A stretch of DNA of 64,000 nucleotides. Origin: Siphonodentalium dalli (Eukaryota; Mollusca; Scaphopoda; Gadilida; Siphonodentaliidae). Of this stretch, positions 5,763-53,020 are shown piece by piece; position 1 is the stretch's first letter; each line of letters begins with the position of its first letter. The stretch lies in the NCBI GenBank assembly GCA_032622095.1, contig CP136063.1, forward strand, positions 142,263,450 through 142,327,449, in the 5' to 3' direction. The notes under the pieces were generated by a model. It was not told the origin of the DNA. It ran no database searches and saw only the letters and a program-made list of their open reading frames with translations. A program made the translations under genes and the position numbers.

Positions 5763-6308
5763 AGAGGATCTACAATGAGTCCCCAGTTTATAGCGGAATT
5801 TACAAAACGAGTCCAGTAAATTAGGTCTGGACCGAGCCTTTGGAGAGGTCCAGACCTAATTTACTGGACGAGTTTTGTAATTTCCGCTATAAACTGGGGA
5901 CGAGTTGAAAATTCTATTTATTACATGATCCAAAACATCGACAAAACATACTTAAATCAACAAATGGGATAGTAACATCGGCTTCTATAAGGCATGCAAT
6001 GACGTTTCACATAGCTATTCGTTGTTTGCCCGCGTAAAGAAATAGTCCCATATATCTAAAGACTCTTTGGCGCATTCAATGGCTTATATTTAATGACATA
6101 ACTTTTCAAACTCTTCATTCATGATAGTTTGTTAGAAAAATATTGGAAGCCATAGTATTTTGAGACATAGCATACGAAGTGTTAACAGACGACAAACCGG
6201 AACTCAAAGGTCACCTGGCACTATTTCCTGTTATTAAACGAACATTTAATATCACAATTTATAGAATGGGTTTATTGAATGGAATAAGGGTAGGATCATG
6301 TAATAAAT
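5763..6308 (+). mobile_element. Hairpin-headed element, copy 1
   Basis: A ~65-bp/65-bp hairpin (arms ~5763-5831 and 5849-5914, loop CCGAGCCTTTGGAGAGG) is followed directly by TTTATTACATGATCC at 5917-5931. The exact reverse complement of that word, GGATCATGTAATAAA, closes the element at 6293-6307. Homologous over its whole length to 52453-53020 and structurally to 51008-51333. No ORF of note was seen and the target duplication of this copy is not clear. Known Helitron or HINE structures do not fit well, because here the hairpin is at the opposite end from the closing repeat. Confidence 0.75.
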
Positions 6309-7919
6309 TAGTTTCCCCCACCCCATCATAATCGGAAAAAAATGGTAACCGAGTAAGGCTAAACTTTGAACCAGTAGGTACAATAGGACCCAAAATATTT
6401 TCTGTTAACATCGTTTTTCCTGACCAGTACATATTAGGGTATTATATATATATATGAAAATACCAAACAAGTTAAGTAGTGGGCGGGGGTGCACGAGGGG
6501 CGTACCAGCTCATGGACTATAAGGTCATAATAAGGTGTACTATTGTTGGTTTTATGATTATACATGCTCTTATTGGCATATTGAATGTGCGAGTGAATCC
6601 AGGGGCGAATAATAGTAAACTATATATGTAAATACATTCTAATTTCCAGGTAAATTAACGTCAATTGTCTATATATAGGTCATTTTTATTGAAATTGTGT
6701 GAAGATACCGATAAACTGTTATGTGGGGCCTATTAACAAAATCAATCATAAAAGCATTCGTCTTGATATTATTATCGATTGTAATATATTACTTATATTA
6801 TGACCGTCTTGTAAATTGAACGTGCATAAGTCTTATAGTAGACCTACTGAGCATTGCTATATGTTTGCATGAAGTTTCACAACTAAACAGTTTAGTCTCA
6901 GTATATTATAATATTACTCGGCATATGCCAGGGGCCTGTGTATGTGTTTATAGGTGACACATATATATTGGGAGCGGGCCAAGTACAAGCCCTTGTGGTT
7001 CATAGTTTGGGTTAAATTATATTAGTTTCAACATTATTATGAATACTCCGTTTTCAAAAAGTTCAGTTATTTCATCAATTATAACAGCATTAATATATGC
7101 ATGCATGCGTGTATTCATGTTTCCGAGTTGTTGAATATAATAATTTGTCCGCAATTTTGAAAGTTATTTAGAGTACCCGTGTTTTCACGAAAATAATAGT
7201 AAAAATAGGGAAAATGCAACAGAAAGGTTCTCAGTTCAAGGTATATAACTAAAAGAAGAAGAGATAGTGTATTTGGTAATATATATTTTTTGAAGCACAT
7301 ATGCCAAATAACAATTTAATTGCGAACAATATGCAAAGTTTGGTATATTTGGCATGAAAATAAAATGGTTAAAGTTAGAATTTGGTCTTGTTGCTAGGGT
7401 AATTTAATTGCATAGCAACTATGGGCAACACATTTGACAACCTAACCAACGTGAGAGGAATACGGAGAGAACCTTTAATGTGGACACAAAGTTTCTGGCA
7501 GTCTAAGCCATTTCACTTGAAAATTTTATAAAAAATGTTTTTGAGACCAATTTATGCAAATTTGGCATATTTAATTTGATCTTGACCTTTGAACTTGACA
7601 GAGGTAACTAGAAAATTGCCAACAATGATTTTATTTATGGGGGTATCCCATAGCACATTATTAACATTGTTGGCATATGGTACTAAAAATGTTTGGCAAA
7701 AATTGTTCTAGCCACCTTTTCTCTTACCTGCCTCCTGACAGTAGTATCCAACTATGAACCTTACAAGGAGGTTCTGGAATTATAACTTAGCTGACTATGA
7801 AACAATGATTGAAGAATTTATGCGCTGGAACTACAAAAATAATTCATATGCTATGTATGGTAGATATTTTAACATCCAAGATTGAAATTGTATGTATTCC
7901 CAACAAAGTGACATTAATA
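6309..7919. other. Unassigned AT-rich sequence
   Basis: I see no gene, no long tandem repeat and no repeat shared with other parts of the window. Short AT microsatellites occur near 6445. Probably old intronic sequence. Confidence 0.35.
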
Positions 7920-7947
7920 TTAAAGGAGGAGTAGTCTCACATGCAAC

Positions 7948-9048
7948 GTGCGGAAATCAATGAAGAAACAAAACCGTTTGTACAAGATAGCAAAAAAGAA
8001 AAACACACCACAGGCATGGGCAAATTTCCATTCTAAACGAAATGAAACCACATCAGCTATAAGAAAAAGCAAACACGAATATGACATTAAGAATGAACAG
8101 GTGTTAAGAAATCCATCAAATGACCAGTGTTCATGATGGAAAATGCTCCAAATAGATGTATTTTCAGAAAGTATGCGATCAGTACCCCATTTGAATGTAA
8201 ATGGCGATTTCCTGATCTCACCAACTGAAAAAGCTAATGCGTTCAATTCTCTTTTCTGTACAATTTCTTCAGTTGCCTACATGTATGTGGTCAAAATGAA
8301 GTCGGCAATCTATAGCAACATTAAAATTACATCTGGGGAATACAATGCACTCCAAAGTCGCAAAGTCAAGTGCGATCAGTACCCCATTTGAATGTAAATG
8401 GCGATTTCCTGATCTCACCAATTAAAAAAGCTAATGCGTTCAATTCTCTTTTGTGTACAATTTCTTCAGTTGCCTACATGTAGCTGGTCAAAATGAAGTC
8501 GGCAATCTATTTAGCAACATTAATATTACATCTGGGGATGTTTGCAATGCACTCCAAAGTCGCAAAGTCAAGCGGTCCTGATGGAATAAGTCAAAGAGTT
8601 TTAAAGAATTGTGCCCCGTCTCTCTGTGAACCTCTTGCATACTATTTCAAATTATTTACCGATAGAGTTATTATCCTTCTCAGTGGAAACGATCCCATGT
8701 CTCCCCCATATTTAAGACTGGTGATCCGAGTCAGATAACACATTACCAAGCTATATCATTACTGAGAAATTTATTTATAAATACCTGTGGAATTTCCTAG
8801 ATCAAAACAAACATTTATCATGCTATCAGTCTGGCTTCATGCATGGCGATTCTACTGTATTACAACTTACCAAAATATACGATAACATTTGTCGATCCCA
8901 AGATGAAGGTAAAGAGGTTAGGTGTGTATTCTGTTACATAAGCAAAGCATTCGACAAAGTATGGCACAAATGCCTCCTGAATAAATTATCAAAAATTGGA
9001 ATAATTGGGGGATACATTATTTCTGGCAAGTCACCATATCAAATGTGA
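7948..9048 (+). pseudogene. Non-LTR retrotransposon (LINE) reverse transcriptase relic
   Basis: Fragments in several frames together read as the region before and through the start of a LINE reverse transcriptase. 7948-8136 holds a linker-like basic segment (RKSKHEY, FHSKRNE). 8143-8280 continues with FLISPTEKANAFNSLF, and ~8570-8650 reads SSGPDGISQRVLKNCAPSL. 8839-9048 reads HGDSTVLQLTK and then motif A as CYISKAFDKVWHK. In active enzymes the residue before ISKAFD is the catalytic Asp; here it is Tyr. Stop codons and frameshifts separate the pieces, and bases 8174-8370 are tandemly duplicated at 8371-8567 (offset 197). The clade is uncertain (CR1/jockey-like). It is dead and has no bearing on the host gene. 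Confidence 0.85.
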
Positions 9049-10490
9049 GCTTGGTACACGAACATGCTGTACATACAATACAGCGTACATTGTTCATAAA
9101 GGGCATGGTAGGAGTTTTGAACATATTCATTGACTAGCAGGAGTCTAAATGAATTTCAAATATATACGTGTCCAGACCTTTCGTACCGTTGATATGGCGA
9201 ATCGACTTCACGCACGACTGAAGCACATTTACATGGAAAGCATTTATATTGTCATGTGCCCCACGACCACTGCCAATAGCCTTTCCGACAAGAGTCCATC
9301 ACATGGCTCTTCATACTTCTATTGCCCATATCAATTTGATTATCTGGCACATAGACAATAAAACAGGCAGGACGTTTGCGCTGTCCATCTTAGCTTTCGA
9401 GGAAGCTCATTGACCAGCATTACAGACCTTTCCCCGCAGGCAGGGGACCACCCCGTATGAGTGGATCCCATCCCCATGGCACCAGACGCCCGATCATAAG
9501 GGCCTGAAACCATGCTACCAACTCTGCGCACTTCGGTCTATGCTGGATTTGTCCTATTTCCTTTAAACTTGCCTTAAACAGGACCACTTAGGTAGGGGGC
9601 GTTCCTCTCTATCATATGGCTATTAAATTCAATAAGTAAAAATGCACCGTTATAAGGGATGTGTAATTTCATTAGGAGGATGATAAATTCATTCGTTTCC
9701 TTCCTAGGGGAGCCATTTTTAGAGCGGGCCTTCCCCTAGTTTGCTGCATGCTTCACACTAACCTACCTATCACACACCTAGGTCGTTCTGCTGCATGTTT
9801 GGGGGAAAGTGACATGATGTTCTGGGCCGAGGCTCAGACCTGAATATTACGTATGGTGATCGTGCCAATTTACCCGTGTTTATCATCTGACTACATTGTA
9901 CATCTTTGAACTGATTTCGGTTGTAGAAAAGACAACTACTAGTATCTGAATATTTCACTACGGTCGTTTAATTACGTACATCAGATCGTGGTGGGTATTC
10001 CGCTGGGAATGCGGACTGCTCTCAGGTGCCTAATGGTTGTGAGGGCCTTATAATAGTGATGTGTGTGGATTTAGGTTGAACATAATAGTCGTGATTGAAA
10101 AATTTGGCTCTATGTCTCCATTCCAAATGATGGTGATCGTTGGGAATTTTCTCAAAAGTTAATACTCGTACCGCCACTATTGTTTCTCAGTGGCTGCTCT
10201 GGTCACCTGCGGTATTCGGCCATGAGCTACCGGTGCTTATGGCTGTTAGTCATGTTCTCTGAGGGGCTATATATATATATTTAGTGATACATTGGATCAT
10301 GCCAGGGATCTGTGCTCTGGCTCCGCCCATTGGATTGATGGCCACAGCTTTTGTGGGGCCTTCTGACATGATCTCATGCTGACTTATATATCACCCTGAT
10401 ATATCTATTATATCATTTTATATATTTATATACGCGAAAGATTTGTATCACAGGGTTTCTGCAATGATATCTTGTGATACATAGGTACCT
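9049..10490. other. Unassigned sequence, possibly old retroelement
   Basis: No coding region I can name. Open frames of ~60-70 codons (9149-9361, 9770-9958 minus) look random. GC content appears higher than the neighbouring intron between about 9380 and 9560. Confidence 0.3.
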
Positions 10491-11300
10491 CAGAGACATG
10501 TGATGAGCAGAAGAAGAAAGAAGAGGAAGCTGTTCTAAGTAGGAAGGCAGGACCAGTTCACGCTCCTCTGGTTACGTCTCAACGGTCAACCCGCTAGTGG
10601 GGATGCGTATGGTGGAGTAGGCGGGGTACTTGGGACCTCCAGGACATTTGTCCCCCACCAAATGCTAGCGGTTCTGGGCGCAAAGCTGCCAAATCGTGTG
10701 CGCACGAATCATCACCAGCCGAAGGGCCTTTGGCAGCTTAAGCGCAGGGCAGTGGCCCTACCTCTACGGTAGCAAGTCGAGACCCCCTGGCCGTGCAAGC
10801 TCTCATCTCAGAAAGGCCTTGCCTGCCACTCAACCGTCTTGGGGCTAGGAGAACAATGACCTCTCCCCACCCTCCAGCTTGGCCAGGATATTAGCTTGGG
10901 CATGACCACCTTGCAGCATGCGGTGGTGGGGGCTCCCTCTGATCCGATGGCTTGACTCCATTATCGTTGTACAACCCGTTTGGCCTAATGGGTTCTCCAT
11001 TTGATCCCTGTGCCACAAATTGGGCATCAGGTTATCTGCTTTTTGCTTTGGCGAACAGCAGTTAGTTAACTCTTAATGTTGGTTGTCTCTCCATCTTCGG
11101 AGTGGGCCTCCTCCTGTGCAGGTCGTTCTGTCGCTAAGGCGGAGAGTGAGTTAGTCTCCTTGCATCATGATCCTGCATCATGATCCCATGGCGGGTGGGA
11201 CCTTAGAACTGACAGATGAAGAACGAAGAAGACGACAAAGAAAGAGAAGAACGAAGAGTATCTTCTTCAGTTATACTTGCTCGGTTCGCTCGCAACTATG
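10491..11300 (+). other. GC-rich non-repeated block, possible 5' region of a retroelement
   Basis: Noticeably GC-rich compared with its surroundings. It ends with a short frame from ATG at 11188 (MAGGTLELTDEERRRRQRKR) that stops after 38 codons. A basic, DEERRRRQ-type start resembles some retroelement ORF1 N-termini, but this is only inference. No copy occurs elsewhere in the window. Confidence 0.3.
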
Positions 11301-11404
11301 AATTGGATGGCACCTCCTGTGATGTTTCTTCCAAAACAAGGGGTGGGAGGTACACATTTGAGCAATATAGCACTCCGTCCGAAATATTATTAAGGAAGTT
11401 ATGA

Positions 11405-11747
11405 AGTAAAAATGAAAAATTTGAAAACTCAAATTTAAGTTTTACGAATAACTGATATTAATTATATTTCGGGCCCACCCATCCTCCCCGCTGGGAGTCA
11501 ATAATACTTTCCAGAATGGCAGCTTCTTATAGCGCCAGAAGGAAAGTGAGATATAGTGGAATGGTCCACTCACAAGCTGTGGGGCGATTAAATTGCTTTA
11601 ATCTGATTGGATGGTTTCGCTAAGCTCCACCACAGGCGAGTTTATTATGATCTATTATGCTAGAAGGGGATAATTCTGTCCGAAATATTATTAATATCAG
11701 TTATTTGTAATACTTAAATTTGAGTTTTCAAATTTTTCATTTTGGTA
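11405..11747. repeat. Foldback element with ~65-bp inverted ends
   Basis: Bases 11409-11472 (AAAATGAAAAATTTGAAAAC onward) are the near-exact reverse complement of 11678-11747. About 205 bp of mixed sequence lies between. Likely a MITE. A target duplication could not be fixed in the AT-rich flanks. Confidence 0.75.
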
Positions 11748-12566
11748 AGTAAGTTTAAGATAGATTGACAAATACACGAAATATTGACTGGACATACTAG
11801 TAACGGCTACAAATGCTCTGAAAATACTGTCCATGGCCATTTTCCAGCGGTTTTCAATTTTCCCCACAGAAGTGAAACACCACTCATTATTTCTACCATA
11901 TCAGGAATAGACTAGCACGGAATGCTCTATTTTATTTGGGACCCAAACACCGTATTTAAAAATGTATTTGTTATGACTTCAATATGTCTTTCTGGGACAT
12001 ATAATGTCCGTAGAATGGTAGTTCAAGTTTATATCGACCTATTTCGATACCAGGAAAATTTCAAATAAAATATTATTAAGTGTATTTTTTAGCTCAAACT
12101 GCCATGTGGCTTTAAGATCACACTACCATATGCAGTACATAGATGTATTGAAGTTCTTTCCTTGCACATTCTGAAGGAACGATAATAGCTTATTCATGAT
12201 AAATATCAATCTCTACTGTAACTGGTAGTGATATAAAGAGCTATTTAATGAAGTTAATATAATTAATCATGGTTTAATTTCATCTACATGTTAATGTATA
12301 GTATTAATTATTTTTCCATGTTTTTTTCAATAAAACAATAAATTACTCTATATTCTAATAGTATCTACTTAGTTTTATTATTTTATAGTCAATTACGAAC
12401 AAGAAGTAGTATGGGGGCGCATACATATTTATTTCTAGCAAAGTTGAATATAAAATAGAAAAATTAACTGGTTCGCTGCTAAATATCCTATATACACACA
12501 ATGAATATGTAATTTACTACGTTTGAACTCTTTTTCTCGAACTTGAGCCCCACACATATATACATT
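11748..12566. other. Unassigned AT-rich sequence
   Basis: No gene or repeat family was recognised. Confidence 0.35.
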
Positions 12567-16182: not shown

Positions 16183-17733
16183 TTAACACGTTGAGAGCCA
16201 CTACTAGTTATCTCGTAGTACGCAACATTGCCACTACAAGTTATCTCGTAGTGGTTTCCATGTCGTGTAACTGACAAACTGAAGCAGTAGAATAGGTCGA
16301 TACACCACGAAAACCCGTCTCGGAACATCAGAACAGTGATTTTATCAAATAAATAGTGTGGCTCCCCTTACATCGTTCAACTGAAGTGAGCACCATCAGC
16401 ACATATATTCTACCCAAAATGGTCCAGTTGTGAGTGAATACAGCCGACACTGTCTCACTGAGTGACCACCAGAGACAGTCGTGTGTGGGCAATTAGACCG
16501 GGTGTTTGGTATTCAATAGACTGACAATGTACACGCATGCAAACACAGTCAGGGGGTGGATATTCACAATGTACAAACATGCGAAGGCAGTTTCGAGGAA
16601 TGGTTGCATCATTGTGTTTCAACACATTTAAATTTCGCACAACCACCCACACACGTCACACGGGTCTGCCAAATATGTTCCCTCTCACTCGTGTGCGAAT
16701 GGACGCATCCAGCACAAGATAAGCGGATAATCCATGACGTTACGCGCTTTGATGCTACCATTTTCTCATTATTAGGGAACATAGCAGTTGTTTTGGAATA
16801 TACTGTGTGGCTCCATTTGGGAGCTAGGTATTCTATTATTTATCATTCAAGTAAAGCGGAACAAATATTCCCCAAAGCTACATTGTACCATCTTCCGAAT
16901 GTGTTGGACAATGGAAAGCGTAACAATTACCATACGTTAGACGTCATGCAGCTCATCGAACTGTTCTACATGTATGTACGGATGAATGGTTTTGTGTAGC
17001 ATAGAGGTTTACAGTAAAGGGTGACTTATTTCCAGACGGATGGATTATATGGAATTGTTACATGTAGCACACTCCTGAATATACAGGGATCTATTTGGCT
17101 ACTGCTGCACGGTTATTTTAATTTTGTGCTGACAATTCTTCCTACACTATTATTTGGGCTGTATTTTGGAACTCTAGCATATGCCTAAATCAGGCTAAAT
17201 GGGAGATAACTTACAATGCCCGAAACAAAAGAAGATGCACGCTCGTAGTCATTACTGGACGAAATAAACTCATCCTCACAGGAATCAAGTTCACCTGATT
17301 CCACGTCGGATTCACTGTCTGTAGCCATGCTCATATAAGTAATTTGCTCTACCATGTATCAGCCATAATATAACTATATAATGAGCTATATAACCACCAC
17401 AAGGATACCCACACCTCCATAAATATGCTTACCACCAAAATAGCTTGTTTGGGTTACATTCTACTTCATCTTTGCTGCTCAAACATGTCCAATTGTGTCT
17501 ACGAGATAACTTGTAGTTGGCACTGGTGGTGGGAATACCCAAATTCCTTCCGCCAGTGCCGGCTACGAGTTTCTCGTAGTACTATCAGTCGCCGTTTCTG
17601 TCATCTAAAGTCGCGACGTCATCTAATTCTTGCTTTATTGAGGCCAAATTATGGTCTACTAAGGGTATCCATCTTGCCACGATTTGGCAAACTGGCGAGA
17701 TTACTAAATGATTTCCGGCACTCAACGTGTTAA
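16183..17733. mobile_element. piggyBac-like element, copy in unit 1
   Basis: TTAA at 16183-16186 and 17730-17733 flanks 1543 bp with ends CACGTTGAGAGCC and (reverse complement) CACGTTGAGTGCC. The flanks CTACATG and TACCTGTGTGCAG are the two halves of one 76-bp minisatellite unit, so intact units nearby serve as empty sites. Subterminal CTCGTAGT palindromes occur at both ends. Near the right end, on the minus strand, is a piggyBac-transposase-like first exon. At 1.5 kb it is shorter than autonomous members, so it is a deletion derivative. A plus-strand frame of 147 codons (16556-16999) is unrecognised. Confidence 0.88.
17215..17328 (-). pseudogene. Remnant N-terminal exon of piggyBac-like transposase (unit 1)
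   Basis: From ATG at 17328 the minus strand reads MATDSESDVESGELDSCEDE, then FISSSNDYER and ASSFVSGI, and meets a consensus donor GTAAGTT at 17214-17208. It is exactly 38 codons. A short acidic, Ser/Asp/Glu-rich N-terminus is typical of piggyBac transposases. No catalytic DDD core was found in the element, so the rest was probably lost. The exon is kept at the same position in units 2 and 3. Confidence 0.6.
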
Positions 17734-20330: not shown

Positions 20331-21889
20331 TTAACACGTTGAGAGCCACTACTAGTTATCTCGTAGTACGCATCATTCGCAGGTTGCCACTACAAGTTAT
20401 CTCGTAGTGGTTTCCATGTCGTGTAACTGACAAACTGAAGCAGTAGAATAGGTCGATACACCACGAAAACCAGCCTCGGAACATCAGAACAGTGATTTTA
20501 TCAAATAAATAGTGTGGCTCCCCTTACATCGTTCAACTGAAGTGAGCACCATCAGCACATATATTCTACCCAAAATGGTCCAGTTGTGAGTGAATACAGC
20601 CGACACTGTCTCACTGAGTGACCACCAGAGACAGTCGTGTGTGGGCAATTAGACCGGGTTTTTGGTATTCAATAGACTGACAATGTACACGCATGCAAAC
20701 ACAGTCAGGGGGTGGATATTCACAATGTACAAACATGCGAAGGCAGTTTCGAGGAATGGTTGCATCATTGTGTTTCAACACATTTAAATTTCGCACAACC
20801 ACCCACACACGTCACACGGGTCTGCCAAATATGTTCCCTCTCACTCGTGTGCGAATGGACGCATCCAGCACAAGATAAGCGGATAATCCATGACGTTACG
20901 CGCGTTGATGCTACCATTTTCTCATTATTAGGGAACATAGCAGTTGTTTTGGAATACACTGTGTGGCTCCATTTGGGAGATAGGTATTCTATTATTTATC
21001 ATTCAAGTAAAGCGGAACAAATATTCCCCAAAGCTACATTGTACCATCTTCCGAATGTGTTGGACAATGGAAAGCGTAACAATTACCATACGTTAGACGT
21101 CATGCAGCTCATCGAACTGTTCTACATGTATGTACGGATGAATGGTTTTGTGTAGCATAGAGGTTTACAGTAAAGGGTGACTTATTTCCAGACGGATGGA
21201 TTATATGGAATTGTTACATGTAGCACACTCCTGAATATACAGGGATCTATTTGGCTACTGCTGCACGGTTATTTTAATTTTGTGCTGACAATTCTTCCTA
21301 CACTATTATTTGGGCTGTATTTTGGAACTCTAGCATATGCCTAAATCAGTCTAAATGGGAGATAACTTACAATGCCCGAAACAAAAGAAGATGCACGCTC
21401 GTAGTCATTACTGGACGAAATAAACTCATCCTCACAGGAATCAAGTTCATCCGATTCCACGTCGGATTCACTGTCTGTAGCCATGCTCATATAAGTAATT
21501 TGCTCTACCATGTATCAGCCATAATATAACTAAATAATGAGCTATATAACCACCACAAGGATACCCACACCTCCATAAATATGCTTACCACCAAAATAGC
21601 TTGCTTGGGTTACATTCTACTTCATCTTTGCTGCTCAAACGTGTCCAATTGTGTCTACGAGATAACTTGTAGTTGGCACTGGTGGTGGGAATACCCAAAT
21701 TCCTTCCGCCAGTGCCGGCTACGAGTTTCTCGTAGTACTATCAGTCGCCGTTTCTGTCATCTAAAGTCGCGACGTCATCTAATTCTTGCTGTATTGAGGC
21801 CAAATTATGGTCTACTAAGGGTATCCATCTTGCCACGATTTGGCAAACTGGCGAGATTACTAAATGATTTCCGGCACTCAACGTGTTAA
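20331..21889. mobile_element. piggyBac-like element, copy in unit 2
   Basis: TTAA at 20331-20334 and 21886-21889; 1551 bp between. The 147-codon plus-strand frame is open here too (20712-21155). Confidence 0.88.
21371..21484 (-). pseudogene. Remnant N-terminal exon of piggyBac-like transposase (unit 2)
   Basis: Again 38 codons ending at a GTAAGTT donor. It differs from unit 1 by one replacement (Gly to Asp in the VESGELD stretch). Confidence 0.58.
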
Positions 21890-28160: not shown

Positions 28161-29326
28161 GGAGGGGAGGGGAGGTACCTCTAGTCACTCCACTATATTT
28201 GGTTGAAATCAGGGGTTTGGGAGAAATCAGGAACAGACAGATGTACAGAAATGTTCAGTAAATGACTTTAATCCTTGTATTCTCTACTACAGCAAGCCAC
28301 CCCATGTGCTCTGATGGACACATGTTTATACAACTGGCAGATGGGTAGATAACATCTGCTGTGCCATAGTGCTTTCCATCCCCAGAGAGTGTAATTCATG
28401 TCATTTGTAATTTAAATGAGATTAATGGTGTTATCAATGAAGCACCCTTGTTTTTTACATTATCACTCAGTGGTCATTAAAATCAGATTTATTTCATTTT
28501 CTCCAAGTTTGAATTAAGAGTGTCTGGCATTTGTAGAATGAGGTTCCCAGAGGGTGAATTTAGGGGGTTGCTCAACACAGCAGGCTAGCATAACCAAATA
28601 CACCCTCTGAGAACCTTATTCTGCTTAGGCCTCATCTTCTGGGAAGTATCTAGAGTCTCAAGATCTCATTCTGCTTAGGCCTCATATTCTGTGAAGTATC
28701 TATAGTATCAAATTTACATTGTTGTTAGTTAAATTTCCCTTCTAGGAAGTTTATATATCCCCTAATTTGCAGAAGATAAAATTCATGATTGAGGTGCCCA
28801 ATGGGTGAACATCACCAACTTCAACTGGGGAACTTCAATTTTATTCTAGGTCTTCCATAGCAGTTGAGGGCCTTATCAGAATGAGGTCCCCTGAGGGTGA
28901 ATTTAGTGATACTAGCCCGCTGTGCAGGATAGTGTCACTAAATTCACCCTCTGGGGACCTCATTCTGCAAATAACAGACAGACTATTTCAAGGCTTGATT
29001 GTATAATACATTGTGTTGCTTGAGGCCAGACATGCACAATGTAGGAACAGACATGCTTTTAGTGATGCTATCCCACACAGCGAGCTAGCATCACCAAATT
29101 CACCATCTGGAGACCTCATTCTGCTTAGGCCTCATCTTCTGGGAAGTATCTATAGTATCAAATTTACATTGTTGTTAGTTAAATTTCCCTTCTAGGAAGT
29201 TTCTATATCCCCTAATTTGCAGAAGATAAAATTCATAATTGAGGGGCCCAATGGGTGAACATCACCAACTTCAACTGGGGAAATTCAATTTTATTCTAGA
29301 TCTTCCATAGCAGTTGAGGGCCTTAT

Positions 29327-29391
29327 CAGAATGAGGTCCCCAGAGGGTGAATTTAGTGTCACTAAATTCACCCTCTGGCGACCTCATTCTG
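29327..29391. repeat. 65-bp near-perfect palindrome
   Basis: Arms of 32 bp around a single T at 29359; one mismatch (GGTCCCC against GGCGACC). Related palindromes, some with a 20-30 nt loop, lie at ~28880-28970 and 41880-41945. Confidence 0.85.
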
Positions 29392-30061
29392 CAAATGACA
29401 GACACACTATCACACTATTTCAAGGCTTGATTGTATAATACATTGTGTCGCTTGAGGCCAGGCATGCACAATGTAGAAACAGACACGCTTTTTGTGATGC
29501 TATCCCGCACAGCAGGCTAGCATCACCAAATTCAACCTCTGGAGACCTCATTCTGCTTAGGCCTCATCTTCTGGGAAGTATCTATAGTATCAAATTTACA
29601 TTGTTGTTAGTTAAATTTCCCTTCTAGGAAGTTTCTATATCCCCTAATTTGCAGAAGATAAAATTCATAAATGAGGTGCCCAATGGGTGAATATCACCAA
29701 CTTCAACTGGGGAAGTTAATTCTTATCCTTATCAGATTTGTGAAAATGGGATCACAAAGTCAAATAAGGGCAGAGCAAGAGACTTAACTATTTCACTACA
29801 TAGTAATTCTTAAAATATGTTTGCAAGAACTAGTTGGCTTATATAGAATGGAATGTTCTTCCTTGACTGCAATTCAGATTTTTTTTAATGGGGTCACCTG
29901 GTCAAATAGGGGCCAAGCGAAGGACAGTTTCCCTCTTAATATGCTTCCTTCACAAGGACCATCAGGTCTATTTTACTGATATTTATGATATGTATGAAGG
30001 GTTCTTTGGTGTCTGGGATTCAAATTTATTCAGATAGGGTCACCAGGTTAAATAGGGTGGG

Positions 30062-30148
30062 AGAATTACTATAGAGACATATAGTTATGTCCCTGCATGG
30101 TCCCACCGTGGGACCAGGGACATAACTATATGTCTCTATAGTAATTCT
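30062..30148. repeat. 87-bp palindrome unique to block D copy 1
   Basis: AGAATTACTATAGAGACATA ... TATGTCTCTATAGTAATTCT, with an unpaired CATG on one side and GGTCCCACCGTGGGACC at the centre. The paralog near 42610-42650 has only the right half. Confidence 0.9.
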
Positions 30149-31544
30149 TAAAATGTCTTCTCAAGAGAGTTTGGACTATTTAGCTTTAATACATATAGTA
30201 TGGAGGAATCAGGAGGATCCTTTAGTGACTGAGATTCAGATTTGTTAAAATGAGGTCAACCTGTCAAGAAATGGCAGGCTATGGGGAGTTAACACTTTTG
30301 TGTCCAATAAAATCATCGAAATACCAAATTCATTAAAACATCTACCTTGGAACCACCTGACTGTTTGGTCTGACATACATGTATTGTGTTTTGGGTCCAT
30401 GGATAATTGGGCTTCAAACATGTTTAAATGGTTTTAGAAAAAGGCGCTTGTGAGATTGGAAATTTCCAACAATTGAGAAAGTTTGAGGTGTCGGTTGTGA
30501 AATTCAAAATGGCCGCCGAAAAATGACGTCATATGCACGAAAATAGGAACTTTAATTAATATTTCACCATATCTTCCATTTTTCTTCACATTCATCAAGC
30601 GTGATATTATAGCGTCATTTTAAGACATTTTCCATTGACGAGGGTTCCGTAATAGATACAGAAAGAGGATTTGAAAAAGAGGGGTGAAATTTTCGATTTT
30701 TTTTGCAAGACGATTTTGATGGTCATTTTATCGACAAACCACACAGGCTGTTAATAGAATGTCAACAATTATGTGCTTTATTTTATTGGACGGATGTTTT
30801 ACTTCAATTGGAATGAAATTGGTGTAAAAAAATTCCAAAATGACCACTAAAAATATGAAAAAATGGTAAATATTGCCCCAGGGTGTCCTGCAATGGCTTA
30901 CAAGTTGTGGTTGATATATAAAAATGGCTAATCTGTATTATATACATTGAATACTAACATGTCTGATGCACCATGGATCATTGTTTCTATTGTCACCACT
31001 GACATCACCAGAAATATTGGATTTTTCTCTCACAAACTTGACATAAATATCGGCAAAAATTCACTTTTCAGGGTTGGACAATTTTTTTAAGTAAAATGCA
31101 ACTATCATTGGTATCAAAGGTATTTATTGTTTTGGTCTATCTTAAATGTGTCACACTACGGTGTTTATAGACCAAATTGCTCAAGATGGCTTCCAAAATG
31201 GCAACCAAATTTGTAAAAAGTTAACTTTTTACATATATCCCGAACATTATTATCTGCGTTATCCGACAAGGTAGCAAACTGTGACTCACTTGGTTAGTAT
31301 ATGTGTTAGTTAATTAACTGACAACTACGTTCTATTCTGTTTGTCCCAGTTCCGTATGGGGCATGACAAATTCATTTTAAAGTTGCAGTATGGAATTTTG
31401 CGGAGAACCTCTTTTGTGATTCTGGCCATATTATTGAAAGGAAATTGGCAGAACTTTGAGACGGAACTGAGATGAACCATAATATGTGACTATTCTGGCC
31501 CATTATGATAAAAAGTGATCAACTGGATAAAAGATGGATGCCAA

Positions 31545-41160: not shown

Positions 41161-41319
41161 ACCCCACCCCCAACCAACAACATTCCACCCTATCTCATAT
41201 CCTAACTCACAGGTAAATAAAGTATATTTATTTAAATTCCCATTACAAGGCAACTCTCCTAAGAACTGATAGACATGGCAAGGCAGATAGATAGATAAAG
41301 ATTCTGCAGCCTTAGACAG

Positions 41320-43005
41320 AGTCCCCAGGGAGTGTATTCATGTCATCCATAATTTAAATGAGATTAATGGTGTTAGGAAGTTTCTGTATCCCTTAATTTG
41401 CAGAAGATAAAATTCATGATTGAGGTGCCCAATGGGTGAACATCACCAATTTCAACTGGGGAACTTCAATCTTATTCTAGGTCTTCCATAGCAGTTGAGG
41501 GCCTTATCAGAATGAGGTCCCCAGAGGGTGAATTTAGTGATACTAGCCCGCTGTGCAGGATAGCCTCACTAAATTCACCCTCTGGGTACCTCATTCTGCA
41601 AATAACAGACAGACTATTTCAAAGCTTGATTCAAGGCTAGCATCACCAAATTCACCATTTGGCGACCTCATTCTGCTTAGGCCTCATCTTCTGGGAAGTA
41701 TCTATAGTATCAAATTTACATTGTTGTTAGTTAAATTTCCCTTCTAGGAAGTTTCTATATCCCCTAATTTGCAGAAGATAAAATTCATAATTGAGGGGCC
41801 CAATGGGTGAACATCACCAACTTCAACTGGGGAAATTCAATTTTATTCTAGGTCTTCCATAGCAGTTGAGGACTTTATCAGAATGAGGTCCCCAGAGGGT
41901 GAATTTAGCGTCACTAAATTCACCCTCTGGGGACCTCACTCTGCAAATGACAGACACACTATCACACTATTTCAAGGCTTGTTGTATAATACATTGTGTT
42001 GCTTGAGGCCAGGCATACACAATGTAGGAACAGACACGCTTTTTGTGATGCTATCCGGCACAGCAGGCTAGCATCACCAAATTCACCCTCTGACGACCTC
42101 ATTCTGCTTAGGCCTCATCTTCTGGGAAGTATCTATAGTATCAAATTTACATTGTTGTTAGTTAAATTTCCCTTCTAGGAAGTTTCTATATCCCCTAATT
42201 TGCAGAAGATAAAATTCATAAATGAGGTGCCCAATGGGTGAATATCACCAACTTCAACTGGGGAACTTAATTTTTATCCTTATCAGATTTGTGAAAATGG
42301 GATCACAAAGTCAAATAAGGGCAGAGCAAGAGACTTAACTATTTCACTACATAGTAATTCTTAAAATATGTTTGCAAGAACTAGTTGGCTTATATAGAAT
42401 GGAATGTTCTTCCTTGACTGCAATTCAGATTTTTTTAATGGGGTCACCTGGTCAAATAGGGGCCAATCGAAGGACAGTTTCCCCTCTTAATATGCTTCCT
42501 TCACAAGGACCATCAGGTCTATTTGACTGATATTTATGATATGTATGAAGGGTTCTTTGGTGTCTGGGATTCAAATTTATTCAGATGGGGTCACCAGGTT
42601 AAAAGGGTGGGACCAGGGACATAACTATATGTCTCTATAGTAATTCTTAAAATGTCTTCTCAAGGGATTTTGGACTATTTAGCTTACATATAGTATGGAG
42701 GAATCAGGAAGATCCTTTATTGACTGAGATACAGATTTGTTAAAATGAGGTCAACCTGTCAAGAAATGGCAGTCTATGGGGAGTTAACACTTTGTGTCCA
42801 ATAAAATCATAGAAATACCAAATTCATTAAAACATCTACCTTGGAACCACCTGACTGATTGGTCTGACATACATGTATTGTGTTTTGGGTCCATGGATAA
42901 TTGGGCTTCAAACATGTTTAAATGGTTTTAGAAAAAGGCGCTTGTGAGATTGGAAATTTCCAACAATTGAGAAAGTTTGAGGTGTCGGTTGTGAAATTCC
43001 AACCT
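41320..43005 (+). repeat. Dispersed repeat block D, copy 2
   Basis: Aligns with 28380-30505 but lacks ~300 bp corresponding to 28440-28748. It continues past 43005 into CCAACCTAAGACTTGGGAGT, which is absent from copy 1 because the long inverted repeat begins there. Confidence 0.85.
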
Positions 43006-44045: not shown

Positions 44046-44176
44046 CATTTTGTTCTGAAATTTAGTATCGGATTTAGGGTCCTTGTTATTTTTTGTTATT
44101 ATCAAATATTGCGTCCAACACGGTTGCCGATAGTCATTCATTCACAAAATTAGGCATGATATGATATCTATGTGCC

Positions 44177-44576
44177 TTAACCCTTTACCCAACAGAAGGG
44201 CCCTGTGCCAATGCATTCTCTTATATATGCGAGTCGACCATAGGTCGCCTCGCATATATAAGAGAATGCATTGGCTTAACACATTAAAAATTATAAAATT
44301 GTTAAAGTATGTAAGAAAAAATGTTTAAAAGTGTTAAATTTTTTTTTTTTTTAGGCCAATGCATTCTCTTATATATGCGAGGCGACCTATGGTCGACTCG
44401 CATATATAAGAGAATGCATTGGCACAGGGCATAACTGTAACTATCACAATGTGGTCAAGGAGCCGGTTCCAATGATATCCATATTTGTATGATTCTATTG
44501 AGACAGACCGAAGATATTTTAGGCTGTTGAAGCTTTATTTGGCCGGTTTTGGCCGGTTTGTTGGGTAAAGGGTTAA
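44177..44576. mobile_element. piggyBac-like MITE with two nested palindromes
   Basis: TTAA at 44177-44180 and 44573-44576 flanks 392 bp with 14-bp perfect ends CCCTTTACCCAACA. Inside, an ~80-bp palindrome (arms CCAATGCATTCTCTTATATA onward) at ~44197-44275 recurs inverted at ~44354-44433, separated by an AT-rich spacer. The inverted pair reads GCCCTGTGCCAATGC outward on both sides. There is no coding capacity. Confidence 0.85.
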
Positions 44577-46374: not shown

Positions 46375-46399
46375 TTAACATTTGCCGATCGTGATCGGC
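46375..46399. mobile_element. Possible solitary TTAA-type transposon end
   Basis: TTAACATTTGCC is followed by the palindrome GCCGATCGTGATCGGC (46384-46399) and CTCTCGTTT. Nearly the same text is at 18058-18090 and at the equivalent place in units 2 and 3. TTAA next to a subterminal palindrome is the pattern of the three TTAA elements above. No partner end was found. Confidence 0.4.
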
Positions 46400-48850
46400 C
46401 TCTCGTTTCTGAAATTCCTTGAAAGATATGGCCGCCAGCAGCCATCTTGGATTTCAAATTTTAACAATCGGCACCCCGTAGCCGACATTTTTTTGGCATG
46501 CTCAGGATCACATCTGGATGGAGCTATTGAATTTGAATGATATTCAATCGAAAATATGGCTGCCTGCAGCCATCTTGGATTTTAATCTTTGCATCACTAA
46601 CTACTTTGGCATGCCTGGCAGCCAAGCATCCATTTGATCCCAGCCGTCATAAGACTCCAAGTTGAGCTACATTGTCATTTACACTTTCATTATACTGCCA
46701 GACTGGTATCTTCATGGACAATCTTGTATTAGCTCAACTTGTGAGTCCATCAACAATTTCTTTAAACACACTATCTTGGATTTCACAACCCAATGCAGGG
46801 ACAACCCGGCCCAAATAAAGAATGAATTACAACTTTCTCTGCTTTATTTCAAGTATACTTTTGTGACATTGTCAACATGATCCAATAGCAATAGCAATAT
46901 AGATATAAAAAATAGTTGTGACACAATACAACCTGTACATGTATAAGAAAAGAACAGAATAGATTCAATAGAGTATACTTCCGAGTGTTAATATTCATAT
47001 AATTGTTTAGTTCGGTGTCCAATTCTCGTACCGACTATGTCGCCACAGCGGGATTTATTTGTGTTTTAAAATATAAATCATACATTTCGAAGAAAATATG
47101 AAGATAAAATTGTGCACGACATAAATTATCTAATCAAAACATGGGATAACTGACCAAAGAAATTGGGACAACCCGACTCAAAATACGCCAGGGTCAGGTT
47201 GTCCCTGTGTTGGGTGATCCTGCTTCCCAAAATCCTTCAGCACACCCAACAGGCCACATCCTTCATCCAATCATCACCAAACTTCATATGGTTCTTTCGG
47301 GTGATATATATGATTCTTTTTTGGGGTTCTTCGGGGTGATGGGAGCAATACATTTTTTTCAGAAATCCGTTAAAAACATGGTCTCCAGCAGCCATCTTGG
47401 ATTTCAAATTTGAATCCATCAGCACACCCTGCAACTCGCATTTATCTGAGAAATGTTTTGAAATTTCACAGGCATGTTTAGGATCATCTTTAGATCACCT
47501 GCCGCCAGCAGCCAACTTGGATTTTACTCTTTGCATGACTACATCCTTCGGCGCAGCCTACACATTCTACATCCCTCATCGGATCATCACCAAACTTCAT
47601 ATGGATCTTTGGGGTGCATGACCTCTAGATGGGAGCGATTGAATTTGAACAATTTTCAATGAATAACATGGCTAGTGGGAGCCATATTGGATTTTACTCT
47701 CTGCATGACTAAATCCTTCAGTACTCCCAACGTTACCACTAGTCAACAGGCTGATGTTTGGGTATACATACACCATTTTATATACAAATCTGACATTGAG
47801 TGAGAGTAATCCTGTGAATACCCAGTGGAAACTGGGGATCCTGTCTGCTTAGACTATTAGCATTGATCTCTGTGATGTTCAGGCTTGCTTGGATAGTCAC
47901 TATAATACATGGACATAAACTAACAATACTATACTATTGCTATAGCTATACATATACTGGTAGCCATAATGGAGTTTACTTTCTGCATGACTAAATCCTT
48001 CAGCACTCCCAGCAGGCCACAACCCTCATCTTATCGTCATCAAACTTTGAAATTTTCGGAGTGACCACTAGATGGAAGCCATAATGGATTTCACATTTGA
48101 ATCCATTGGTACAGCCTGCAGCCACCATTTATTGAGAAATGTTTTGAGAATTTACAGGCATGTTTAAGATCACCTCTAGATGGGAGCTATTGAATTTGTA
48201 AAACATGGTCGCTGGCAGCCATCTTGGATTTTATTCTTTGTATCACTAAATCTTTGAGGTCACCATACAGCCTACATTTTTCATTGCATTGATCCAAAAC
48301 TCCATATGTAACATCGGGGTGGGAGCTGTTGAATTTCTCTAAATTTAATATTTTTAAATGGTCGTCTGCAGCCATCTTGGACTTCACATTTGAATTGGGA
48401 CACACGTCCCTGTAGCTGTCATTTATGGTTGGATCTCTTTTAAATGAAGATTGCGCTATTGCGATGGGTTGGCATCCATCAACAATTTGTTTGACACAGT
48501 CCACATCCCTTGTCCTATCATCATTAAACTTCATATGGATCTTCGGGGTGACATCTAGATGGGAGCCATCAAGTTTATTCCGATTGATATTCATTAAAAT
48601 ACATGGACGTCATCAGCCATCATGGATTTCACATTTGAATTTATCGGCACATTTTATATTGGAGAATTGTTTTGAAAATTTACAGGCATGTAAGTAGGAG
48701 CTATCAAATTTGAATGATTACGATAAAAAATATGGCCGCCAACAGCCATTTTGGATTTTACTCTCTTTATGACTAAATCCTTCGGCACACGTTGTACCCA
48801 CAGTCAGCATTTGTCATCCAATTTATCCCAAACTTCATCTTAAGGTGATC
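46400..48850 (+). repeat. ~168-bp degenerate tandem repeat family, block 3
   Basis: Ordered family words run throughout (CCAGCAGCCATCTTGGATTT, TGCATGACTAAATCCTTC, CTAGATGGGAGC), interrupted by the element at 46788-47215 and by unassigned sequence at ~47730-47960. Confidence 0.8.
46788..47215. mobile_element. Inverted-repeat-bounded insert, 428 bp
   Basis: Begins ACCCAATGCAGGGACAACCC and ends with the near reverse complement (GGTTGTCCCTGTGTTGGGT). Family words stop and resume at its edges. The CAGGGACAACC core recalls hAT ends, but I could not find an 8-bp duplication. Confidence 0.55.
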
Positions 48851-50315
48851 CATCTGTGGGTCTGTCTGTCCATAGACACATACTATCTAATGCGATAACA
48901 TGAGTATTTTTATGAGATGATGTTCACATTGTATGTGCATGTTATAGTGGTATAGTTTTTTATATCGATCGGTTTACCGTTTTAGTAATTATTAACACTT
49001 TGCATCCACCTTGACACATGTTCTATCTGACGTGATAACTCATATCGTTTTTGTTGCTTGAACCAGGTTTATAAATGAACACTCTTTGATAGACATATTT
49101 AGTAGTGTTATACAATTAGAGGTGATGTCCTGTTTTGAAAACATAAAGATTTGATTTCAATAATTGCATGTGATATAATGATATATCACATGAAACCCCT
49201 GCATGCAATTATATCATTAAAAAAACCATTACATATACAGATTAATACTATTTTGAAAAGCCGCGCATAACACCAGGAAATGCAAAATGATTGATTTGTT
49301 CATTAAAGTTAAATTCTTGTCCAACTTCTTTGCACTTACAAAAATAGACATAAAAATATTTGGGGACTATATTTTCGGTTGCCAGCCTGAGCGCACAATA
49401 CTTTAAATACGGTTGTGAAGCATCTCAGCCAACCCTGTAAATGTATACATTGTGTGGCTTCTTTTAAGGTTTTACTTTGTTAAAAAGGCATAAAGCTCTT
49501 GGTTTTTTCATGTGATATAATTACACCTCTATTTTTCTCATTCATTGTCCTCGATTCGGATTGGACAAGTCCTACAACCCCTTTATAGTTACTTGTTGTT
49601 TGTATTTCTCGATAAAGATTTAAGTGGACAATCTACCGGTGGAGAAATTCGGTAAGGGTTAACAATCGCGTGAGTCGATTGTCCCCAGGGCGAATTTGTC
49701 TAGATTGTCTATGGTGTGTCCTTGGTTACCAATCATTTCTCTGTGAATTAAAAGTGTTCGCTTCAAAGTAAAAACTGATTGCTTTGATGCATTTCTTGAT
49801 AATAAAAGATTTCAATCTATAATTTTTCTCCAAATGGTTGGCAAATAGCATGGTTATGGCAATAACTGGCTTCACCTGTAACAATTAGATGGTTAACAGC
49901 CTACTGCGAATCGGCAAACTTCAAATTAAATTTTCGAAGGCGTAATTTCAAAGTCGTGATTGCAAAATGTCAATGCTTTAGGCAGATTCACATCAAATTC
50001 CTATACATGTAGTATCTTATTTCTATTTTCCAATTCGAAAAGTGATTTTTAATGACACAATTGTTAGTTGTTCTTCCGCGTAGGTTTCATTTTGTTTACA
50101 TTCATATCGATCGTGACTTGAGCGGCCTTGAACTTCTTTTATCTCGCATTTTCTCCGTTGGAAAATAGGCCAATAAAATTTTGTCCAATCGTTCGAACTG
50201 GATACTCGAAATATCGAAATTGCGATTTTTACAACAGACAATTTGAGATAATTCTTTCTTGTATGTTGGAATTTTTGTGCCAGATGCATAATTATAAGCA
50301 ATCAACATATTTTTT
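48851..50315. other. Unassigned intron sequence
   Basis: No gene and no repeat shared with other parts of the window. A small inverted word TGTGATATAATGATATATCA lies at ~49170. Frames of 92-99 codons at 50023-50427 on both strands show no recognisable domain. Confidence 0.35.
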
Positions 50316-50445
50316 GTTGCATTTACGGGCTTATAAAATTGTATGTGGACGAATAGTACCGGTACTTGGTATAATTTCACTTTGCAAATTTATACAGTAT
50401 GTTATTTGTCCACTTAAAATTATATAAGCCCATAAATGCAATGAC
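50316..50445. repeat. Foldback hairpin, ~35-bp arms
   Basis: GTTGCATTTACGGGCTTATA onward (50316-50350) pairs with 50408-50445 (ending ATAAATGCAATGAC), with a few mismatches and a 57-nt loop. Confidence 0.7.
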
Positions 50446-50786
50446 TCGTTGTGAATCAAATTTATAAAACACGTTTCATAAAATCTTATATCCCAGCATA
50501 ACTTGTTGGAGATCCTCTATAAATTAATTTTATCATATAACATCCAATATCCATAGTGTCAAGAGTACATCTTTCATAGCTTCAAAGCCATTTTTCCGTC
50601 AATGTTGAGGAAAGGCAAAATAATTATAAATCAGACTTGCATTTTGTTTTTTTGCATTAGGGCTCTATTAAACTACATAAGCAAATGCTATCTAAATCAA
50701 TACCTGATCTAGTTTTTAACTTCTGGCATCATTTGAGTAAATTGAAATTGATTACATTATATTGGTTATAGTCCTATCAGATCATT
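50446..50786. other. Unassigned sequence
   Basis: AT-rich; no gene was recognised. Confidence 0.35.
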
Positions 50787-51007
50787 ATAAACCCATATCT
50801 TACACATGGCCTCCATATATATGGTAAAGATAAATAAACTATAAACCCATATCTTACACATGGCCTCCATATATATGGTAAAGATAAATAAACTATAAAC
50901 CCATATCTTACACATGGCCTCCATATATATGGTAAAGATAAATAAACTATAAACCCATATCTTATACATGGCCTCCATATATATGGTAAAGATAAATAAA
51001 CTATAAA
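50787..51007. repeat. 54-bp minisatellite, left part (4 copies)
   Basis: Units of ATAAACCCATATCTTACACA then TGGCCTCCATATATATGGTA then AAGATAAATAAACT. The 54-bp period (18 codons) keeps minus-strand frames open (repeat SLFIFTIYMEAMCKIWVY). Confidence 0.95.
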
Positions 51008-51333
51008 TAGAGGATCTCACATGAGTTTCTATTTTATACGGAATTTATCAACCGAGTTCACTAAATTCGATTTGAGCCGAGGTTTACCGAGGCTCAAATA
51101 GAATTTAGAGGACGAGGTTGATAAATTACGTATAAAATAGGACGAGTGTGAGATACCTTTTATCACATGATCAAATAAACCCGAAGCAACGCGAAATATT
51201 CATCGAAAACAACAATCATGAACTACAGCGATCGCAAGTTATTTGAAGAACGCCGTGATGTCATCACACACGCTGATATTAAACGTGTCTATTACCGATA
51301 ATTATGAAACTGCTTTTATGGCCAAATTATGTG
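51008..51333 (+). mobile_element. Hairpin-headed element, copy 2, inserted in the 54-bp minisatellite
   Basis: Starts TAGAGGATCTCACA. A long hairpin spans ~51012-51155 (arms with GAATTTATCAACC / GGTTGATAAATT and TGAGCC / GGCTCA), followed by TTTTATCACATGATC. Ends AATTATGTG|ATAAA. The array is resumed exactly, with ATAAA at 51003-51007 and 51334-51338, giving a 326-bp insert with an apparent 5-bp duplication. Sequence has diverged from the 5.7-kb and 52.4-kb copies but the layout is the same. Confidence 0.8.
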
Positions 51334-51657
51334 ATAAACCCATATCTTACACATGGCCTCCATATATATGGTAAAGATAAATAAACTATAAACCCATATC
51401 TTACCCATGACCTCCATATATATGGTAAAGATAAATAAACTATAAACCCATATCTTACGCATGGCCTCCATATATATGGTAAAGATAAATAAACTATAAA
51501 CCCATATCTTGCACATGGCCTCCTTATATATGGTAAAGATAAATAAACTATAAACCCATATCTTACGCATGACCTCCATATATATGGTAAAGATAAATAA
51601 TCTATAAACCCATATCTTACGCATGGCCTCCATATATATGGTAAAGATAAATAAACT
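51334..51657. repeat. 54-bp minisatellite, right part (6 copies)
   Basis: Continues the array at 50787-51007. Units show a few substitutions (CATGACC, GCACATGG). Confidence 0.95.
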
Positions 51658-52452
51658 ACTGGTAGATCTACTACTGTAGTGTCCAATGCAGACATTAATT
51701 ATGTTTGTGTGCATCTAGCTGGCTCTGCTATGTATGTTTATTACAAAATTGTTGAAATGTTAATGTTGCATCTATGATACATTCAAGTGACGTACCTGGT
51801 ATAGTCCCATCATATGATGAGATTGGAAATCATTAGCCTTGTCCACTCATCATATGCTCTTGTGATATTTTTCAATCTCCAGGTTCTACCTACAACCATG
51901 ATATGAACACATGCTATCCAAAGCAATACTTTTCTGATCAATCTCATAGTTATACATATCCAAGTAAATACATATCCCCTCCCCTGATATATCTTTCCAA
52001 TCATCTCCATATTATGTGCACAGGTGTATATTAAGTTCTAGATTGCTGATTTTGAGTCTGTATGGTTGAATGTATGGGTTAAACATCTGCCAAAGTATGA
52101 TCCTCATTTCGTTTCATGTACTTGATGATGGTTGTTGTACAGACTTTAATGTTTTTCACATTTACCCACTGCGAGTGCCTTGAGACCCTTTAATAATTGA
52201 ACATGAATTAACATCTTGTATTTTTATGACATTCATTCTGCTAATAAAGTATCGATCTGCATATTTTTTGTAGGTTCTGCCTGTGAAGAGCAGTGCACAA
52301 TAAGTTTATAATATAGGCTATTTGCTCAACCCTTTCATTATTGCTGGGACTGTTCAAGTAATAAGTACAACATACAGCATTGTGCCTTTAAAGCTCTCTG
52401 TTGCTGATGGTCAATACTTACTACATGTATTATACTATAACATTAATATAAA
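51658..52452. other. Unassigned intron sequence
   Basis: At ~52075 GGGTTAAACATCTGCC repeats the text next to the solitary TTAA ends at 18055 and 46373, but without the palindrome. No gene was recognised. Confidence 0.4.
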
Positions 52453-53020
52453 TATAGAGGATCTACAACGAGTCCCCAGTTTATAGCGGAATTTACAAAA
52501 CGTGTTCAGTAAATTAGGTCTGGACTGAGCCTTTGGCGAGGTCCATACCTAATTTACTGAATGATTTTTGTAAATTTCGCTATAAACTTGGGCCGAGTTG
52601 TAGATTCTATTTATTACATGATCCAAAACCTTGACAAAACATGCTTAAAATCAACAAATGGGATGCGAAACTATAACATTCTTCTATAAGGCATGCAATG
52701 TCGTTTCACATATATATAAACTATGCGTTGTTTGCCCGCGTAAAGAAATAGTCCCAGATAAATAAAGACTCTTTGGCATATTTAATGGTGTATGTTTTAA
52801 ATAATGACAAAACTTTTCAATCTCTTCATACATTATAGTTTGTTGGAAAAATATTGGAAGCCATAGTATTTTTGAGACGTAGCGTGCGGAATGTAAACAG
52901 ACGACAAACCGGAAGTCAAAGATCACCTGGCACTATTTCCTGTTATTAAACGATCATTTAATATCACAATTTATAGAATGGGTTTATTGAATGGAATAAG
53001 GGTAGGATCGTGTAATAAAT
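52453..53020 (+). mobile_element. Hairpin-headed element, copy 3
   Basis: Hairpin 52453-52606, then TTTATTACATGATCC (52610-52624), closed by GGATCGTGTAATAAA (53005-53019). Clearly homologous to 5763-6308 along its whole length (shared GTTTGCCCGCGTAAAGAAAT, GGTTTATTGAATGGAATAAG). It ends 108 bp before the terminal CHID1 exon. Confidence 0.8.

Follow-up and report, generated by a model that had tools for sequence, protein, structure and literature searches.

A putative Helitron2/Helentron-type family of non-autonomous elements with a very long terminal hairpin in the scaphopod Siphonodentalium dalli

Introduction

In transposable elements of the Helitron2 group, the 5' inverted repeat lies 0 to 2 bp from the 5' end, and the 3' repeat is subterminal, just upstream of a hairpin (Bao and Jurka 2013, PMC3627910). 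The available text of PMC5148889 likewise gives this layout for Helentrons and mentions some fungal elements of the Helitron2/Helentron group whose repeats do not form hairpins. Stems of 9 bp are given in the accessible part of PMC3630058, and PMC4344730 is a further related paper. Here, we analyzed a stretch of 64,000 nucleotides from the scaphopod Siphonodentalium dalli (GenBank assembly GCA_032622095.1, contig CP136063.1, positions 142,263,450 to 142,327,449 of the forward strand), referred to below as the window, which holds three complete copies and one relic of a short element. In each complete copy, a hairpin of ~150 nt adjoins the word TTTAT(T/C)ACATGATC, which is followed by a body and then by the word's inverse. 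We judge, with some reserve, that these copies make up a non-autonomous rolling-circle family of the Helitron2/Helentron type. An initial annotation of this DNA had recognized the three copies but proposed a new class of element, regarding a whole hairpin outside one terminal repeat as without parallel. It had compared canonical Helitrons and miniature inverted-repeat transposable elements (MITEs) only; as far as the available text of PMC3627910, PMC4067079, and PMC2374699 goes, this is the layout of Helitron2, Helentron, and DINE-1 elements and a hallmark of the Helitron2/Helentron group, and the claim of a new class is not supported.

Followed along the minus strand, the elements run 5'-TTTAT(T/C)ACAT(G/A)AT, body, inverse repeat, hairpin of ~150 nt, CTCTA-3', so that the hairpin at the head of the plus strand becomes the usual 3' hairpin. 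As in Helitron2, in the sections of PMC3627910 at hand, there are asymmetric terminal inverted repeats (8 to 15 bp in that group), the 5' one terminal and the 3' one subterminal, immediately upstream of the 3' hairpin; a 5'-T is also shared, as are compensatory changes in the terminal features of two related elements. The same sections place the 3' repeat about 20 to 30 from the end, compared with 151 to 155 nt here, and list as a Helitron2 feature a 5'-terminal hairpin, which these copies lack. The HINE elements (Thomas et al. 2014, PMC4067079; Cg_HINE of the oyster, PMC7492417) are similar in their short noncoding bodies, subterminal inverted repeats, and 3' palindrome; in the accessible portions of those papers, the target is T rich, no duplication is reported, and the ends may be common to otherwise different elements. 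However, the published mite palindromes measure 5 to 10 bp, with 38 to 60 bp from repeat to end, both shorter than here, and the tandem repeats, microsatellite, and inverted repeat near the 5' repeat that the available text describes for Cg_HINE (PMC7492417) were not seen in our copies.

In DINE-1 of Drosophila, according to the part of PMC2374699 accessible to us, the stem differs between species while its pairing is kept, and compensatory mutations were already suggested; those stems have 7 to 11 nt, whereas the hairpins studied here have 56 to 61 pairs and GA/GA internal loops. Canonical Helitrons (Helitron1), as outlined in the available parts of PMC4067079 and PMC5148889, also have one hairpin toward the 3' end, and an insertion without duplication, as in that group, would be compatible with our copies. 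There, however, the hairpin lies ~11 bp inside the end instead of running up to it, and our copies have inverted repeats and share neither 5'-TC nor CTRR-3'. We therefore rejected a canonical Helitron: the copies begin with TTTAT(T/C), share CTCTAT at the other end, and have no common CTRR. In the accessible portions of open-licence papers, we found no Helitron2 or Helentron with a 3' hairpin of such length or with GA/GA loops, and the family may already be catalogued in a repeat library (Repbase or Dfam).

Results

We searched the entire window for the copies with BLAST and nhmmer. Copy 1 (5762 to 6308, 547 bp) lies on the minus strand in the Helentron orientation, with its 5' end at 6308 and its hairpin end at 5762. 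Its terminal hairpin (5762 to 5916, minus strand) abuts the inner, subterminal inverted repeat TTTATTACATGATCC (5917 to 5931, plus strand), and the outer, terminal repeat (6293 to 6307, minus strand) is identical to the inner one over all 15 nt. Copy 2 (51008 to 51338, 331 bp, minus strand) has its hairpin, with three GA/GA loops, at 51008 to 51158 (minus strand), the inner repeat TTTATCACATGATC at 51159 to 51172 (plus strand), and the outer repeat TTTATCACATAATT at 51325 to 51338 (minus strand), with 2 mismatches in 14 nt between the repeats. Copy 3 (52455 to 53020, 566 bp, minus strand) consists of a hairpin whose middle loop has decayed (52455 to 52609, minus strand; GT opposite GA), an inner repeat at 52610 to 52624 (plus strand), and an outer repeat at 53005 to 53019 (minus strand), which differs from the inner one at 1 of 15 nt. 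Thus, asymmetric inverted repeats, one 5' terminal and its partner subterminal on the 3' side, were present in all three complete copies. In each of them, the 3' hairpin stood directly downstream of the 3' repeat, which was 151 to 155 nt from the 3' end, and its length was far outside the range given in the available published descriptions.

Copies 1 and 3 were 87.6% identical from end to end (571 aligned columns in the BLAST and nhmmer comparison). Copy 2 was 71.7% identical to copy 1 and 69.9% identical to copy 3, over 173 columns that comprised the hairpin and the inner word only (E values of 1.9e-20 to 8.7e-23). Its body had no significant likeness to that of copy 1 (Smith-Waterman P of 0.25) or copy 3 (P of 0.11), with 500 shuffles in each case; hence, copies 1 and 2 have common ends despite bodies without detectable relatedness. 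Taken by itself and with at most 3 mismatches allowed, the word did not exceed chance in the window (33 occurrences found, 30.4 expected), and its weight lies in the near-exact pairs at matching places, not in its bare count.

A fourth, partial copy, which the initial annotation had missed, was found at 50521 to 50443 on the minus strand (nhmmer E of 0.00036; BLAST E of 0.0007 to 0.038). This relic (50443 to 50521, plus in the Helentron sense) is a single hairpin arm that starts, on the minus strand, with TATAGAGGATCT..., as the other copies do, and no partner arm was found in the interval from 48000 to 50442 (P of 0.86). Directly after it, at 50316 to 50443, there is an imperfect inverted repeat, TTGCATTTATGGGCTTATA..., which may be a small MITE by which the hairpin of copy 4 was replaced or broken up. 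The hairpin is therefore whole in three of the four copies in the window and represented by one arm in the fourth, which, for four copies only, agrees with its being a regular part of the family. The sample as a whole comprises three complete copies in two lineages (copies 1 and 3, and copy 2) plus the relic.

Copy 2 interrupts a 54-bp tandem array (50786 to 51658, no strand assigned), which flanks it at 50786 to 51007 and at 51334 to 51658 and served us as an empty site. The array marker CCCATATCTTA recurs in steps of 54 bp, with one step of 108 bp where the marker of a unit differs. Across copy 2, the step is 385 bp (50954 to 51339), leaving a net insert of 331 bp (385 minus 54) from 51008 to 51338. 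Since this insert includes the hairpin, the hairpin belongs to the element, in line with the noncoding family with an integral hairpin that had been proposed, and the spacing of the array rejects an unrelated neighbor. It also moves the end of copy 2 from the 51333 first given to 51338. The empty site at this one array fixes the size of the insert but leaves the exact ends uncertain by up to 5 bp, because the two junctions have ATAAA in common, and a duplication of 0 to 5 bp is possible from copy 2 alone. The presence of TTTAT in the inner word as well suggests that it is the element's own sequence. When all end choices within 8 bp were considered together with the empty site, the sole duplication common to copies 1 and 2 was of 1 bp (A, two choices). 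The copies begin with TTTAT(T/C) and have CTCTAT in common at the opposite end. In all four copies, CTCTA is followed by a T, which may be either the last base of the element or the first base of the target; for copy 2, the minus-strand target sequence is GGGTTTATAG.

A rival idea is that the TTTAT(T/C)ACATGATC repeats delimit a cut-and-paste MITE and that the hairpin is an accidental neighbor or a nested foldback insertion. The repeats do bracket the body as terminal inverted repeats would, and the window is rich in other hairpins. Nevertheless, the hairpin abuts the repeat in all three complete copies and sits within the 331-bp net insert of copy 2, and the bodies differ while the hairpins match. 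A MITE or other DDE transposon would have inverted repeats at both ends and a target duplication of fixed length, whereas here one repeat lies 151 to 155 nt inside the inserted unit and, given the empty site, copies 1 and 2 share no duplication longer than 1 bp. We consider this explanation highly improbable.

Folded as DNA, the hairpins of copies 1, 2, and 3 (147, 141, and 147 nt) reached -59.1, -42.3, and -49.0 kcal/mol, with z-scores of -17.8, -13.3, and -13.0; none of 200 dinucleotide shuffles was as stable in any of the three, and the folds contained 56 to 61 base pairs. We compared copies 1 and 2 along the two main stem segments, with the gaps of the arm alignment placed with the structure in view. 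Among 51 comparable pairs, there were 13 changes in the left arm and 15 in the right, and 11 were co-located; all 11 were compensatory, with a standard pair in both copies. When the right-arm changes were permuted 20,000 times, the mean number of co-located changes was 5.2 and the maximum 10, and the number of pairs standing in copy 2 (48 of 51) was likewise above the permuted values (mean of 36.2, maximum of 45). Copies 3 and 2 also had 11 co-located changes (P of 0.00025), 9 of them compensating. Sliding the partner by 1 to 3 positions left only 0 to 2 compensating pairs, although the structure tested was the fold of copy 1, which alone favors it over slid versions.

The signal stayed when MAFFT's own gaps were used in the arm alignment (10 co-located changes, 9 of them compensating, of 50 pairs). 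In a MAFFT alignment that included the outer and apical pairs (71 pairs, 209 cells), 13 pairs were changed on both sides, compared with 4.6 in shuffles (0 of 500 reached 13) and with 1 to 2 when the partner was slid. The pairing of the hairpin is thus conserved more than its letters between copy 2 and copies 1 and 3. This bears out the earlier view that base pairing was kept over sequence, for which a search for compensating changes had been suggested. The statement that the arms of copy 2 differ in sequence and still pair stood in part; they are diverged and do pair, but at ~70 to 72% identity, they are still alignable and not wholly different.

Such conservation would also be expected if the hairpin acted as RNA, that is, if the plus strand were transcribed and a long RNA stem, as a small-RNA precursor or a structural signal, were under selection. 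RNA folds of the three hairpins were very stable (-101.4, -74.8, and -85.9 kcal/mol), for each hairpin none of 200 shuffles equaled them, and tandem G.A and G.U pairs suit a plus-strand RNA. On the other hand, the position of the hairpin at the end of the element fits a DNA end signal, and a described RNA family was rejected, as no Rfam match reached the gathering score anywhere in the window. An RNA role seems to us very improbable.

A second feature of the hairpins is their internal loops. By sequence, these occur at three matching places in the three copies, ~30 and ~23 bp apart (in copy 1, the loop GAG sites on the plus strand are 5777/5902, 5809/5870, and 5834/5845). GA stands on both sides in 8 of the 9 loops, all except the middle one of copy 3; at the same places, the arm of copy 4 has AA, GT, and GA. 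Adjacent G.A mismatches in a pyrimidine-GA-purine setting form stable sheared pairs. From the folds alone, the plus strands of the three hairpins gave 7 two-by-two loops, 6 of them GA/GA, as 2 of the 9 loops by sequence merged into larger loops, while the minus-strand folds gave 4, all TC/TC. Neither GA/GA nor TC/TC was found among the 9 two-by-two loops, on both strands, of 12 other hairpin regions of the window, a hand-picked and not exhaustive set from 63 covariance-model matches. G.T pairs outnumbered A.C pairs, with 5 against 0 in the two main segments of the stem and 10 against 2 once the weaker outer segment was added; shared descent inflates the count in that segment.

The loops are relevant to the possibility that the compensating changes were unselected and the product of template switches from one arm to the other (quasi-palindrome correction), with the hairpin as a self-correcting passenger. 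Arm-to-arm correction could also create paired double changes, and only two lineages were compared, with no excess between copies 1 and 3. However, correction should erase mismatches, and yet GA/GA stays at the same three places, in 8 of 9 loops by sequence; this persistence speaks against mere arm correction, which we regard as very doubtful.

The loops could also mean that the copies are single-stranded DNA elements of another HUH lineage, for example an IS200/IS605-like or Replitron-like one, whose head hairpin on the plus strand would be bound directly by a Y1 or Y2 nuclease with the GA/GA loops as recognition points. The presence of GA/GA on the plus strand only, its frequency there (6 of 7 two-by-two loops, compared with 0 of 9 in the other hairpin regions), and the excess of G.T over A.C all point in this direction. 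Yet the numbers are small, and a pair of inverted repeats whose subterminal member abuts the hairpin is the signature of Helitron2 in the available text of PMC3627910. On balance, we find another HUH lineage unlikely.

An autonomous member of the Helitron2/Helentron group would carry the same ends and encode a Rep/helicase, accompanied in Helentrons by an AP endonuclease. Among 9 of the 13 open reading frames (ORFs) of at least 120 amino acids in the window, no Rep or helicase was detected with Pfam (E up to 0.1), and no six-frame scan of the window was made; the only coding hint was a PH-GRAM (MTMR6-like) match below the Pfam cutoff (E of 0.013). The repeats of the window and its lack of long ORFs suggest eukaryotic DNA. 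The covariance model of the hairpin gave its 63 window matches at E values of up to 10 and mostly rewards any long hairpin (for example, those at 44229, 28878, and 30063). For that reason, its E values cannot name relatives, and the three copies match it by construction. Outside the window, pattern scans returned 58, 3, 0, and 2 stretches of IMG/VR and 16 of a prokaryote set, a total of 79 loci and 654,151 bases. The family profile had 10 matches in these viral and prokaryotic loci at E values of up to 1, the best of them (E of 0.0015) covering 47 nt in a stretch that had been selected by pattern, and BLAST of the first 58 IMG/VR loci gave a best E value of 0.015. We took these matches as chance; the collections are ill suited to eukaryote-like DNA, so absence from them says little.

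The window contains several other repeats. At 44200 to 44430, inverted arms of 107 nt (91% complementary), each with a hairpin of its own (TTATATATGCGAGTCGACC...GGTCGCCTCGCATATATAA), form a double foldback element. Palindromic units built on CAGAATGAGGTCCCCAGAGGGTGAATTTAGTG are repeated at 28517 to 29563 and 41500 to 42114, and similar hairpins occur near 56885, 58814 to 59196, and 62774 to 63156. The interval from 49116 to 49533, with TATATCACATGAAA at 49182 (plus strand) and 49506 (minus strand) and the palindrome CATGTGATATAATGATATATCACATG at one of the two, between AGAGGTG and CACCTCT, may represent another element of inverted-repeat-plus-hairpin appearance. Near-identical ORFs with surrounding repeats were found at 16520 to 16999 and 20676 to 21155, 4,156 bp apart, and the repeats recur ~3,250 bp further on; a similar repetition, at 58814 and 62774, has a spacing of 3,960 bp. 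Both pairs are recent local duplications. Finally, there is a long, nearly perfect nested palindrome (AGAATTACTATAGAGACATATAG...) at 30062 to 30150 and, at 1940 to 2009, the palindrome GGCGACGAGATATCTCGTCGCC in two copies able to pair with each other.

Discussion

Taken by their anatomy, the copies are probably an unusual variant of the Helitron2/Helentron kind, in which their membership is putative. Several observations weigh against this assignment. The distance of 151 to 155 nt from repeat to end and the 56 to 61 pairs are well beyond the stems of 5 to 11 nt and the distances of 20 to 60 bp in the available published descriptions. A search for a 5'-terminal hairpin revealed none in the three complete copies, where terminal folds of 60 nt were no better than 300 shuffles (P of 0.48, 0.95, and 1.0), and neither by eye nor in these folds was there a short inverted repeat beside the 5' repeat like that of DINE-1 and Cg_HINE. 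If the empty site is ignored, a 3-bp ATA duplication fits copies 1 and 2 and also copy 3, and four choices of a 2-bp duplication fit copies 1 and 2 as well. Between copies 1 and 3, there was no excess of co-located changes (1, with a mean of 0.67; P of 0.57), with 49 of 53 pairs standing in copy 3, and the covariation therefore comes from one comparison of two lineages. Lastly, the restriction of GA/GA to the plus strand and the G.T excess suggest weakly, on small numbers, that folding takes place on the plus strand, contrary to the usual orientation.

Under the Helitron2/Helentron assignment, a RepHel protein encoded elsewhere, by a putative full-length relative, would introduce a nick at the 5' repeat, displace one strand, and come to a halt where the hairpin ends. 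The 5' repeat would pair with the subterminal 3' repeat, placing the base of the hairpin, which adjoins the paired repeats, at the cutting site; this pairing would also mark where replication ends. Insertion of the single strand into a T-rich target would follow, generally without duplication, and the hairpin would mark the end of strand transfer. We infer the enzyme, the single-stranded intermediate, and the strand involved from the layout of the copies, and a recognition of the GA/GA loops is likewise only presumed.

A more speculative proposal, to which we give little credence, is a lineage of single-stranded DNA elements whose end is defined by a long hairpin. This hairpin would form on the strand that the Helitron convention does not use and be recognized through three tandem G.A steps whose spacing is almost fixed (about 30 and 23 bp), and the inverted repeats would serve just to join the ends. 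The transposon end would then be coded in structure rather than in sequence. Should the plus strand be the folding one, this family would depart from the strandedness that is conventional for Helitrons.

Software that relies on canonical Helitron ends misses Helitron2-type elements, according to the accessible text of PMC5148889. The hairpin together with the pair of inverted repeats provides a search model for elements that are possibly annotated as unknown, foldback, or MITE. A family that ends in a very long hairpin, strongly covarying and with repeated GA/GA loops, would offer a clean and testable example of a transposase that reads DNA structure.

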